From: Psychroserpens sp. SPM9
Lineage (GTDB): Bacteria > Bacteroidota > Bacteroidia > Flavobacteriales > Flavobacteriaceae
DNA length: 64,000 nt
Direction of reading: 5' to 3'
Assembly: GCF_025153525.1 (NCBI RefSeq)
Contig: NZ_JANZNR010000006.1
Location: 1 to 64,000, forward strand
In this document: positions 41,045 to 43,492 of the stretch, piece by piece
Layout: each line of letters opens with the position of its first letter
Position numbering within the stretch: position 1 is the stretch's first letter
Notes under the pieces: model-generated
Seen by the model: only the letters and a program-made list of their open reading frames with translations
Database searches by the model: none
What the model was told of the DNA's origin: nothing
Made by a program: the position numbers and the translations under genes

Positions 41045-41635
41045 TTAACGTTTCTTTTTTTGTAATGGAAAACGCATTCTGTAATCTGCTGTTATTTTTC
41101 CTTTGGAAATATTAGCCAATTTCCCTTTAATTAAACGCTTTTTTAATGATGATAGTTTATCAGTAAATAGAATACCTTCAATATGATCGTATTCATGCTG
41201 AACCACTCTGGCGATTAATCCTTCAAAAACTTCGGTATGGGTTTTAAAGTTTTCATCTTGATATTTAATAGTCACTTTGGGTTGTCTAAACACATCTTCT
41301 CTCACATCTGGAATACTCAAACAACCTTCATTGAAAGCCCATTCATCACCTTCTTCCTCTAAAATTTCAGCATTAATAAAGACGCGGTTAAAATTTTTCA
41401 ACGCATCTTGTTCTTCTTCAGTATACACTTCGTCTTCAGAAAACGGTTCTGTATCCACTAAAAACAAGCGTATAGGCAAACCAATTTGAGGTGCCGCCAA
41501 ACCAACACCATAAGCACCATACATGGTCTCCTTCATATTCTCAATAAGCGTATCAAGATTAGGATAATCTTTAGTAATAGGTTCTGCTTTTTTTCTTAAA
41601 ACGGGGTCGCCATAGGCAACAATTGGTAATATCAT
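41045..41635 (-). CDS. def: Peptide deformylase
   Basis: 196 aa. It removes the formyl group from nascent proteins. All three motifs are present: GVGLAAPQIG, EGCLSIP (metal-binding Cys) and QHEYDHIEG (two metal-binding His and the catalytic Glu). It has the short insertion (FSEDEVYTEEEQ) between motifs 1 and 2 seen in Bacteroidota enzymes. It lies between ruvX and the DUF5606 gene. Confidence 0.97.
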   Translation of the reverse strand: MILPIVAYGDPVLRKKAEPITKDYPNLDTLIENMKETMYGAYGVGLAAPQIGLPIRLFLVDTEPFSEDEVYTEEEQDALKNFNRVFINAEILEEEGDEWAFNEGCLSIPDVREDVFRQPKVTIKYQDENFKTHTEVFEGLIARVVQHEYDHIEGILFTDKLSSLKKRLIKGKLANISKGKITADYRMRFPLQKKKR

Positions 41636-41700
41636 GCTTTTGTAATTTTCGGATGCAAAAATACGATTCTTATTATTATTTGAGAAGTTTTAAGATGGAA

Positions 41701-42114
41701 TTAAGAGCGATTATATAAATAACTTTGCAATATAATTGTGGCACTAATCTCATCAACCAAAGCCTTATCTTGACGTTGCTTTTTTTTGAGACCGCTATCA
41801 ATCATGGTTTGAAACGCCATTTTTGAAGTAAAGCGTTCATCTACTCGTTTAATAGGAATATGAGGAATACGCTTTGCTAATTGCGCTAAAAACTTAGTTA
41901 TAGACAGCTCACTTTCAGAAGCTTCATAATTCATTTGTTTAGGCTCTCCAACTACAAATAATTCGACCTGCTCTTCAGAAGTATACTGCTCTAAAAATGA
42001 CAACAATTCTTTTGTAGGTACAGTTGTTAATCCGGATGCAATAATTTGCAATTCGTCTGTAACAGCAATACCTGTTCGTTTTGTTCCGTAGTCTAAAGCT
42101 AAAATTCGCGCCAT
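41701..42114 (-). CDS. ruvX: Holliday junction resolvase-like / pre-16S rRNA nuclease YqgF
   Basis: 137 aa, RNase H-like fold. Motifs: LALDYGTKRTGIAVTD (first catalytic Asp), VDERFTS, and DEISATIILQSYL near the end (last catalytic acidic residue). Known as RuvX/YqgF; it matures the 5' end of 16S rRNA and has been linked to junction resolution. First gene of ruvX-def-DUF5606-mazG. The three tandem hairpin units lie upstream in the same orientation. Confidence 0.95.
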   Translation of the reverse strand: MARILALDYGTKRTGIAVTDELQIIASGLTTVPTKELLSFLEQYTSEEQVELFVVGEPKQMNYEASESELSITKFLAQLAKRIPHIPIKRVDERFTSKMAFQTMIDSGLKKKQRQDKALVDEISATIILQSYLYNRS

Positions 42115-42159
42115 GCTGCAAAGTTAATCTTATAATCTTGTTTAGCTAACCTAAGACCA

Positions 42160-42262
42160 TAAAAAAACTCTTCTTTGTTAGGTTAAAGAAGAGTCTTAAA
42201 ATAATCAACTATTAATTAAATCATGAAACTGTTCACCCTCTACCTTAAACAGGTCATGTTAT
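42160..42262 (-). ncRNA. Predicted small RNA, unit 1 of a three-unit tandem array
   Basis: Read on the minus strand, the motif ATGTGAC-N15-GTGTC (42297-42271) is followed by a predicted start near 42262, a 5' stem (CATGA..CTG with CAG.TCATG, 42258-42250 and 42231-42222), an AT-rich linker and a terminator hairpin of 10 bp (42194-42185 with 42176-42167) and a U run (42166-42160). Total length is about 100 nt. Stem sequences differ from units 2 and 3 while the layout is kept. Inferred, not shown. No protein-coding potential beyond 15 codons. Confidence 0.4.
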
Positions 42263-42270
42263 ATTATTAA

Positions 42271-42297
42271 GACACCACATTTTTTTAAAAGTCACAT
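42271..42297 (-). promoter_or_regulatory. Conserved GACAC-N15-GTCACAT motif, copy 1
   Basis: GACAC (42271-42275) and GTCACAT (42291-42297) are separated by exactly 15 bp, as in copies 2 and 3, while the spacer sequence is unrelated. The minus strand, ATGTGAC-N15-GTGTC, has the geometry of a -35/-10 pair for an alternative (for example ECF-type) sigma factor, or of two direct half-sites 20 bp apart for a regulator. Confidence 0.5.
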
Positions 42298-42311
42298 AAA
42301 ATTTTAAAAAA

Positions 42312-42404
42312 TAAAAAAACCTTTCCTGGGACGCGGAAAGGTTTAATCTTGCTATTATATTAAAAAGGGTATATAGGGCTATCGTTATTATTGATTTAAA
42401 ACCA
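42312..42404 (-). ncRNA. Predicted small RNA, unit 2 of the array
   Basis: The minus-strand start is predicted near 42404, just after motif copy 2. It ends in the best terminator of the array: AAACCTTTCC (42317-42326) pairs with GGAAAGGTTT (42335-42344) over an 8-nt loop, then seven U and further U-rich sequence. The 5' stem seen in units 1 and 3 is weak here (only CTATTATA with TATATAG and one bulge). About 93 nt. Confidence 0.35.
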
Positions 42405-42412
42405 AATAGTTA

Positions 42413-42439
42413 GACACAACAATTTGTGTTAAGTCACAT
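42413..42439 (-). promoter_or_regulatory. Conserved GACAC-N15-GTCACAT motif, copy 2
   Basis: GACAC (42413-42417), 15 bp, GTCACAT (42433-42439). Its spacer contains a small inverted repeat (ACACAA/TTGTGT) absent from the other copies. Confidence 0.5.
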
Positions 42440-42451
42440 CAATTTTAAAAT

Positions 42452-42558
42452 AGAAAACCCTCCTAAGGGAGAAGGAGGGTTTTCACAAAAATTAGCTATT
42501 AATTATTAAAGGTTCAAGCAAAATTTTAGGGAACATGCTTGAATAATAATAATTCACA
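42452..42558 (-). ncRNA. Predicted small RNA, unit 3 of the array
   Basis: The minus-strand start is predicted near 42558. A perfect 8-bp 5' stem, TTCAAGCA with TGCTTGAA (42513-42520 and 42536-42543), has a 15-nt loop. It ends in AAAACCCTCC with GGAGGGTTTT (42454-42463 and 42474-42483). The U tract after this last stem is short, so termination may be weaker than in units 1 and 2. About 105 nt. Confidence 0.35.
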
Positions 42559-42566
42559 TTAATTAA

Positions 42567-42593
42567 GACACGTCTTTTTTTTATAGGTCACAT
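42567..42593 (-). promoter_or_regulatory. Conserved GACAC-N15-GTCACAT motif, copy 3
   Basis: GACAC (42567-42571), 15 bp, GTCACAT (42587-42593). This is the copy nearest dapD, about 50 bp upstream of the dapD -7 element, so it could also influence dapD. Confidence 0.5.
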
Positions 42594-42644
42594 CTTTTTT
42601 TTATTTTTTCTTAATTCTGAATTTACTCAAACAAATTATAGGCT

Positions 42645-42652
42645 TATCTTTG
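42645..42652 (+). promoter_or_regulatory. -7 element of the dapD promoter
   Basis: TATCTTTG, a full TAnnTTTG match, 24 bp before the dapD ATG. No TTG at the usual -33 distance. Confidence 0.5.
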
Positions 42653-42676
42653 TACCAATAGCAAGTAAAAATCAAC

Positions 42677-43492
42677 ATGAAACAACTACAACAAAATATA
42701 GAAAACGCTTGGAATGATCGTTCATTACTCACAAACCAAGTGACAATAGACAGTATAAGAAGTGTCATCGATTTATTAGATGAAGGCACCTTGAGAGTTG
42801 CCGAACCAACAGCTGATGGATGGCAAGTCAATGAATGGGTAAAAAAAGCCGTTGTACTCTATTTCCCGATTCAAAAAATGGAAACTCTTGAAGCGGGTAT
42901 TTTTGAATATCATGATAAAATTCCGCTTAAGCGAGATTACCAAAAGAAAGGCATTCGTGTTGTACCAAATGCGGTGGCACGACATGGCGCTTATATTTCT
43001 CCCGGAACTATTTTAATGCCAAGCTATGTTAATATTGGTGCTTATGTAGACGAAGGCACCATGGTAGATACCTGGGCCACTGTTGGTAGTTGCGCTCAAA
43101 TTGGTAAAGATGTTCATCTTTCTGGAGGTGTAGGCATTGGCGGTGTTTTAGAACCTTTACAAGCGGCTCCTGTGATTATTGAAGATGGCGCTTTTATTGG
43201 TTCCAGATGTATTGTTGTGGAAGGTGTTCGTGTAGAAAAAGAAGCTGTTTTAGGCGCTAATGTTGTACTTACCATGAGTACAAAAATTATTGACGTTACT
43301 GGTGATGAACCCGTTGAAATGAAAGGAAGAGTTCCTGAACGTTCGGTAGTGATTCCTGGAAGTTATAAGAAAAAATTTCCTGCAGGAGAGTTCAATGTTC
43401 CTTGTGCTTTAATCATTGGAAAACGTAAAGAAAGTACCAATAAAAAAACATCGCTTAACGATGCGTTACGAGAATATGATGTAGCAGTGTAA
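42677..43492 (+). CDS. dapD: 2,3,4,5-tetrahydropyridine-2,6-dicarboxylate N-succinyltransferase
   Basis: 271 aa. It succinylates tetrahydrodipicolinate in the lysine/diaminopimelate pathway, supplying peptidoglycan. A left-handed beta-helix of hexapeptide repeats is visible (GTMVDTWATVGSCAQIGKDV, then GAFIGSRCIVVEGV), with catalytic Glu/Asp around VDTWA and GGVLEP. The N-terminal helical domain is intact. Full length. The glycan cluster begins 48 bp downstream. Confidence 0.97.
   Translation: MKQLQQNIENAWNDRSLLTNQVTIDSIRSVIDLLDEGTLRVAEPTADGWQVNEWVKKAVVLYFPIQKMETLEAGIFEYHDKIPLKRDYQKKGIRVVPNAVARHGAYISPGTILMPSYVNIGAYVDEGTMVDTWATVGSCAQIGKDVHLSGGVGIGGVLEPLQAAPVIIEDGAFIGSRCIVVEGVRVEKEAVLGANVVLTMSTKIIDVTGDEPVEMKGRVPERSVVIPGSYKKKFPAGEFNVPCALIIGKRKESTNKKTSLNDALREYDVAV

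Follow-up and report, generated by a model that had tools for sequence, protein, structure and literature searches.

What lies between the ruvX and dapD genes of Psychroserpens sp. SPM9? The window analyzed here, that is, the whole stretch of 64,000 nt at positions 1-64,000 of contig NZ_JANZNR010000006.1 (assembly GCF_025153525.1), exhibits three units in series between these genes on the minus strand (42161-42593), each comprising the motif ATGTGAC-N15-GTGTC, a body of 99-114 nt counted after the -10 box, and an intrinsic terminator. An original prediction on this DNA had described three tandem hairpin-plus-motif units and proposed that they form an array of small RNA (sRNA) genes read from the minus strand by an alternative sigma factor. 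The units are real, and the proposal gains support from conservation, covariation, the terminators and the match between the motif and an extracytoplasmic function (ECF) sigma factor gene. It is very probable that these three short genes make small RNAs, and we put at roughly 88% the probability that the units, termed A, B and C, are three independent sRNA genes, each transcribed by one and the same ECF sigma factor and each ending at its own intrinsic terminator.

Promoters, terminators and three RNA families

The exact motif occurs three times in the window, always on the minus strand and always in the array, against 0.01 occurrences expected from dinucleotide shuffles, and five times in the whole 3.81-Mb genome (reversed control, 0). 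Allowing two mismatches in the form devoid of the first A returns 10 window matches for 8.7 expected; because this count is close to chance, only near-perfect matches are meaningful. The ECF-type promoters, with a -35 TGTGAC, N15 and a -10 GTGTC, are located at 42567-42593 (unit A, with a consensus at fixed spacing), 42413-42439 (unit B) and 42271-42297 (unit C), all on the minus strand, and would place the transcription starts near 42558-42562, 42404-42408 and 42262-42266, respectively. A terminator search over a 900-bp region reports four calls for 0.3 expected; all four lie on the minus strand, and one is nested within another. The three hairpins noticed in the original prediction correspond to these intrinsic-terminator-like stems, at 42453-42484 for A (with covariation in helix 3), 42317-42344 for B (double changes in 5 of its 11 pairs) and 42164-42197 for C (helix 3 of the covariation test). 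As sequence signals, a promoter and a terminator of its own, the mark of an sRNA gene, are present in each of the three units.

Alignments of the orthologues, window included (18 sequences for A, 10 for B and 18 for C), indicate that the units belong to three separate RNA families, each having members of its own. The sRNA gene A (42453-42566, minus strand) comprises a nested 5' stem-loop with UUCCCUAA in its loop, an invariant linker UUAAUAGCUAAUUUU, and the terminator, as delineated by alignment A1, folding, pair counts and model R1. The sRNA gene B (42314-42412, minus strand; alignment A2) is weakly structured, possesses CCCUAUAUACCC in most members, and ends with its terminator. The sRNA gene C (42161-42270, minus strand; alignment A3) is composed of a 5' stem-loop with the loop GUUUAAGGUAGAGGGU in most members, an AU-rich linker, and the terminator. 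One relative (L065) carries other units and was excluded from the alignments, and the A unit of L072 belongs to A1 and stands outside the set of 17 A sequences used for the ORF (open reading frame) and TTRATAG counts below. In L067, the middle unit escaped recognition as B; a B-like stretch in L066 lacks an exact promoter. Folding returns 5' stem z-scores of -7.96 for A (strong), -2.87 for C (present) and -1.48 for B (none), bearing out the earlier remark that a second stem is strong in the first and third units.

The A alignment contains 21 consensus pairs, with double changes in 6, and that of C 25 pairs, with double changes in 5, while support for B is limited to its terminator. Paired cells amount to 95.4% in A (shuffles, 90.7%; slid versions, 40-57%) and to 97.3% in C (shuffles, 94.8%; slid versions, 44-60%), with covariation values of 0.253 (shuffles, 0.170) and 0.202 (shuffles, 0.155), respectively. 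On most measures, covariation in A and C exceeds both the shuffles and the slid controls; since the structure is derived from the same alignments, the real structure is favoured over its slid versions. Conserved RNA structure is found in A and C, and in B at the terminator only.

No ORF of constant frame and length exists among the orthologues (17 A, 10 B, 18 C). Some A members have a GTG ORF, 21 aa long at most, and 4 of the 17 are devoid of any ORF of at least 9 aa, the C ORFs reach 17 aa in differing frames and are missing from 3 of 18 members, and a single 9-aa ORF is present in one B member. A protein-coding role of A, B and C was rejected, there being no conserved ORF. The original prediction could not match the units to a known RNA family, and Rfam 15 over 41500-43200 returns five matches, all sub-threshold (best 25.5 bits versus 54 for PyrR). 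The A, B and C models cross-match each other's loci, a hint of common descent; AT-rich sequence and terminators could also explain these matches.

The ECF sigma gene and other genes behind the motif

Which sigma factor would read these promoters? The regulon and target analyses consisted of pattern searches and the reading of genome stretches. When the 31 motif places of the SPM9 genome (at most one mismatch; reversed control, 12) are compared with its 37 region-4 matches, an ECF gene at C36:129678-130250 displays a one-mismatch motif directly upstream. Among 199 Flavobacteriaceae genomes, about one per genus, 75 encode this ECF protein at E 1e-40 or better and are called sigma-positive. The form TGTGAC-N15-GTGTC is found 278 times in the sigma-positive genomes (reversed control, 21) and 18 times in the 124 sigma-negative ones (control, 36). 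At least one motif is present in 67 of 75 sigma-positive versus 15 of 124 sigma-negative genomes (Fisher p 6.5e-29, the genomes not being independent). Within the best 30 ECF loci (L124-L153), the motif, taken with any two bases before GTC, is located 59-104 bp before the matched ECF coding start in 24; four more have a motif that differs at the first base, and two (L140 and L141) have none. Spacings of 11-14 and 16-20 before the ECF genes return no matches, the spacing being always 15. A pair of boxes kept at constant spacing, associated with a sigma gene and placed in front of it, is expected of an ECF promoter and is observed here.

Downstream of the ECF gene, all of the best 30 loci carry a 56-66 aa ORF with an NPF motif and then a 271-278 aa ORF, for which Pfam, applied to the SPM9 genome, reports a mechanosensitive-channel domain. 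This conserved gene row may represent a second ECF system of the mechanosensing type, after that of Pseudomonas SigX. The small protein between the ECF sigma and the ~275-aa channel-like protein in L124-L153 is of the type MENPFK.I..PLKEVP.ELK, with ~58 residues; its 58-aa member has no Pfam or NCBIfam match. Two ECF matches per genome are present in G081, G095, G150, G179, G182, G207, G217, G219 and G220, and in G095, G207 and G219 the two are no more than ~3 kb apart. The ECF match of G006 (C1:1417677-1418213) contains two in-frame stops, yet the array and its promoters are present.

Searching for the motif upstream of genes, a check suggested by the original prediction, yields the sigma gene and, behind exact or one-mismatch motifs of the SPM9 genome, those of MscL (mscL), an aquaporin of the MIP family (aqpZ), DUF2853, a DUF3078 outer-membrane protein, DUF937, and a 142-aa protein devoid of Pfam or NCBIfam matches. 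In a relative, a LysM protein gene follows the motif. Part of the one-mismatch places are chance, as the reversed control indicates; the best-supported genes, DUF2853, MscL and DUF3078 (relatives by Pfam) as well as that of the 142-aa protein (recognised by eye in five genomes), recur elsewhere. This gene set would point to osmotic or envelope stress. The 142- to 143-aa protein is found behind the ECF motif in L001, L043, L050, L056 and L058, and its gene in SPM9 faces the DUF2853 gene with its motif at a distance of ~2.5 kb (C36:196013 and C36:198590). A conserved hydrophobic ORF of 22-24 aa (MKNTKRIL-type), a candidate stress-induced small membrane protein, also lies behind the ECF motif in L015 (SPM9, C11:658389-658414, one mismatch), L039, L055 and L044. 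In L039 and L055, this ORF precedes an ileS-like gene of a class I tRNA synthetase (Pfam tRNA-synt_1 for L039), and in L044 it comes after another small hydrophobic ORF.

In the mechanism that we propose, the sigma gene is located away from the array, with the same motif upstream and followed by the ~58-aa ORF and the MscS-type channel gene. Membrane tension or an osmotic change would free or induce the ECF sigma, the ~58-aa protein serving as a putative anti-sigma factor. The sigma would then activate genes for the channel, the aquaporin and the envelope and, at the same time, the three RNAs, which may base-pair with mRNAs, most plausibly envelope mRNAs, via their exposed loops and AU-rich linker, and this pairing would adjust target expression. 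Pairing among the RNAs themselves was evaluated in the first 8 of 18 genomes, with 20 mononucleotide shuffles for each. For the window, A-C pairing is 1.6 SD below the shuffle mean, B-C pairing 2.5 SD below, and A-B pairing at the mean; in relatives, A-C pairing ranges from above the shuffle mean to about 2 SD below. Direct pairing among A, B and C is not claimed.

Conservation of the junction and alternative explanations

The motif is present in 26 of the 57 genomes searched (115 matches in total; reversed control, 6), namely in 21 of 23 of the same genus, 5 of 11 of other genera of the family and 0 of 23 outside the family. Among 20 stretches around motif clusters or single sites, 17 carry A and C in the window order; L065, from another genus, has four units of other sequence between dapD and ruvX, and L082 and L084 have no array at this place. 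The original prediction was to fall if the motif were not conserved at the dapD/ruvX junction of relatives, and it stands on this point. The three units are kept in Psychroserpens and near neighbours. The core of A returns 16 records among named genomes (11 Psychroserpens, one each of Ichthyenterobacterium magnum and Arcticiflavibacter luteus, and three bins or strains lacking a genus match). Unit C is found in 20 of 22 genus genomes and the ECF gene in 19 of 22, both being absent from G003 and G021. In G015 (L249, 1380-2733), the array adjoins ruvX and its other neighbour is a cysteine-synthase-like ORF of 326 aa (by eye), not dapD; the array therefore seems tied to ruvX.

A survey of the junction retrieved dapD/ruvX from 70 family genomes and counted those in which ruvX was recognised (40 of 48 sigma-positive, 15 of 22 sigma-negative). 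An exact -35 site is present in 11 of the 40 sigma-positive junctions, that of SPM9 included, versus 0 of the 15 sigma-negative ones. Allowing one -35 change and adding two genomes from outside the survey set (G027 and G030), 19 units are recognised in twelve genera outside the Psychroserpens set, with the same promoter and mostly different sequence. A terminator is located 99-157 nt after the -10 box in 18 of these 19 units (dinucleotide shuffles, mean 0.6, maximum 3). In five, as in C, GAGGG is located 31-34 nt past the -10 box, and five others have TTAAC(C)TTA instead. The element TTRATAG occurs in 11 of the 19 (dinucleotide-shuffle mean 1.3, maximum 4 in 300) and, in the array, in all 17 A units, 12 of 18 C units and 1 of 10 B units; because the units are related, this sharing is a hint only. 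A bolder and rather doubtful idea is that the junction serves as a nursery of fast-evolving sRNAs, the RNA arm of a mechanosensing ECF system, in which promoter, terminator and place would persist across Flavobacteriaceae genera as the RNA between them is replaced, and the C-rich-loop RNAs (A and B) and the G-rich-loop RNA (C) might act on each other and on envelope mRNAs.

Could the motif instead be a conventional transcription-factor site, the RNAs being made by the housekeeping sigma? The TGTGA half-site, which we take to recall CRP-type sites, speaks for it. This explanation is nevertheless very unlikely, as the two boxes are dissimilar and separated by 15 bp only (11-20 examined before ECF genes), and the motif tracks one sigma gene over the 199 genomes and stands at 59-104 bp before its matched start. 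The housekeeping -7 box TAnnTTTG, as defined in a passage of PMC9723704, is moreover absent from the minus strand of the array: the sole one within 42100-42600, TAACTTTG at 42119-42126, directly precedes the ruvX start codon. The ruvX gene itself (41701-42114, minus strand, 137 aa; Pfam RuvX) is adjacent and on the same strand, with the end of unit C ~47 nt upstream of its start codon, as would suit a cis-acting leader or attenuator. Three promoters and three terminators in series argue against such a leader, as does the ruvX box, which follows the last terminator both in the window and in 16 of 17 relatives (L077 is devoid of an exact box), making this explanation quite improbable, although no search aimed at alternative anti-terminator folds was made. 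On the other side, the divergent dapD gene (42677-43492, plus strand, 271 aa; Pfam tetrahydrodipicolinate N-succinyltransferase N-terminal domain) has a housekeeping -7 box, TATCTTTG, at 42645-42652 on the plus strand (by eye). As ruvX and dapD both possess their own TAnnTTTG boxes, neither gene needs the array promoters. The similar layout of the three units might also evoke a repeat, a mobile element or a chance hairpin cluster, a view rendered extremely improbable by the orthologues at the same place and by base-pair covariation above controls. A and C, the two units searched, return one genome match each at E 0.001, and a repeat or mobile element was rejected on that account.

Several points weigh against three ECF-transcribed sRNA genes. 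The case is built on sequence signals, from which expression, start sites and RNA ends are predicted. Neither alignment nor folding supports a 5' structure in B, and in A the number of double-change pairs is equalled by 28 of 500 shuffles and that of further pair types by 437 of 500. A and C are narrow RNA families, found with strict filters in 4 and 5 of the 199 genomes, SPM9 included. Eight of the 75 sigma-positive genomes have no exact motif, and G016 has unit C (C13:86739-86847) and three exact motifs with no ECF gene at E 1e-40, possibly owing to recent loss, divergence or an assembly gap. An exact-box site is missing from 29 of the 40 sigma-positive junctions, in 19 of which ruvX lies 750-935 bp from dapD, and at one of the 11 junctions with a site (L233) the site precedes a protein ORF, for which reason it was left out of the counts of units in other genera. 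Lastly, as to the suggestion in the original prediction that different loops would suit different targets, the exact 12-nt complement of the C loop, the only loop searched, returns no conserved target in the 22 genus genomes, its 18 places being the C locus in 16 cases and lying elsewhere in 2 (reversed control, 6). The C loop is nearly invariant and so suits a seed; C may reach its targets by shorter or G-U-containing pairing, or its loop may bind a protein.

Relation to known systems

Among described sRNAs, LhrC appears closest in working style, and the CcsR or cuckoo RNAs closest in their clustering under alternative sigma factors. As reported in passages of PMC4132741, Listeria LhrC1-5 are multicopy sRNAs of 111-114 nt, for which five promoters were tested; they are induced by cell-envelope stress, including high osmolarity, and carry UCCC in their loops. 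Similarly, the loop of unit A has UUCCCUAA. In contrast, the LhrC copies are described there as nearly identical and dependent on the LisRK two-component system, whereas A, B and C, according to the alignments, are not near-identical copies. They represent three different RNAs, each behind an ECF-type promoter, and come from another phylum, their sequence relation to LhrC having been examined through Rfam only. Passages of PMC10253847 present Rhodobacter CcsR1-4 as four clustered stress sRNAs under RpoHI/RpoHII; a single promoter drives their co-transcription with a DUF1127 protein gene, and RNase E carries out the processing. Unlike CcsR as so presented, each of A, B and C has a promoter and a terminator of its own, and no protein gene accompanies them. 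The enterobacterial MicA and RybB RNAs represent the sRNA output of sigma-E, an ECF envelope-stress sigma. They are not known to form a tandem array, and they differ from A, B and C in the type of sigma and anti-sigma.

The NCBIfam model NF007222, presumably that of the Pseudomonas SigX protein, returns 106.5 bits with the ECF protein, the best of the 85 families listed and below its cut-off of 194. Because the SigX model scores best but below cut-off, the ECF may work like SigX and is not filed as SigX. According to passages of PMC8999054 and PMC7641640, the Pseudomonas SigX-CfrX-CmpX system (ECF102) comprises an ECF sigma, a putative anti-sigma that is small and soluble, and a channel of the MscS type, with a proposed role in mechanosensing; these passages mention no sRNA output of SigX. 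Likewise, a small protein and an MscS-type channel, the latter identified by Pfam in the SPM9 genome, are encoded beside the sigma here. The gene order differs from that described for SigX, and the small protein has 58 residues versus the 84 of CfrX (PMC7641640, in part).

Within Flavobacteriaceae, the part of PMC9723704 consulted describes the Rfp sRNAs of Flavobacterium psychrophilum, with Rfp11 behind an ECF-type promoter, and the ECF motif SM6, which has a CGT box and is tied to T9SS genes. The text description of SM6 in that part sets it apart from the present motif. Searches of open-licence full-text literature, outside of which most subscription journals fall, returned no description of a Flavobacteriaceae ECF regulon with several dedicated sRNAs.

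A, B and C are a known kind of gene in an unexpected and well-conserved arrangement, with a specific sigma factor attached. Its retention in relatives is suggestive of an RNA arm of a response to osmotic or membrane stress. In the passages concerned, the review PMC8999054 counts SigX alone, among the ECFs studied, as having both a small soluble partner and a channel within a mechanosensing complex; the present system is a candidate second case of a mechanosensing ECF, in a different phylum. The promoter, the sigma gene and a likely inducing condition, osmotic or membrane stress, can now be named, together with three short RNAs open to deletion.
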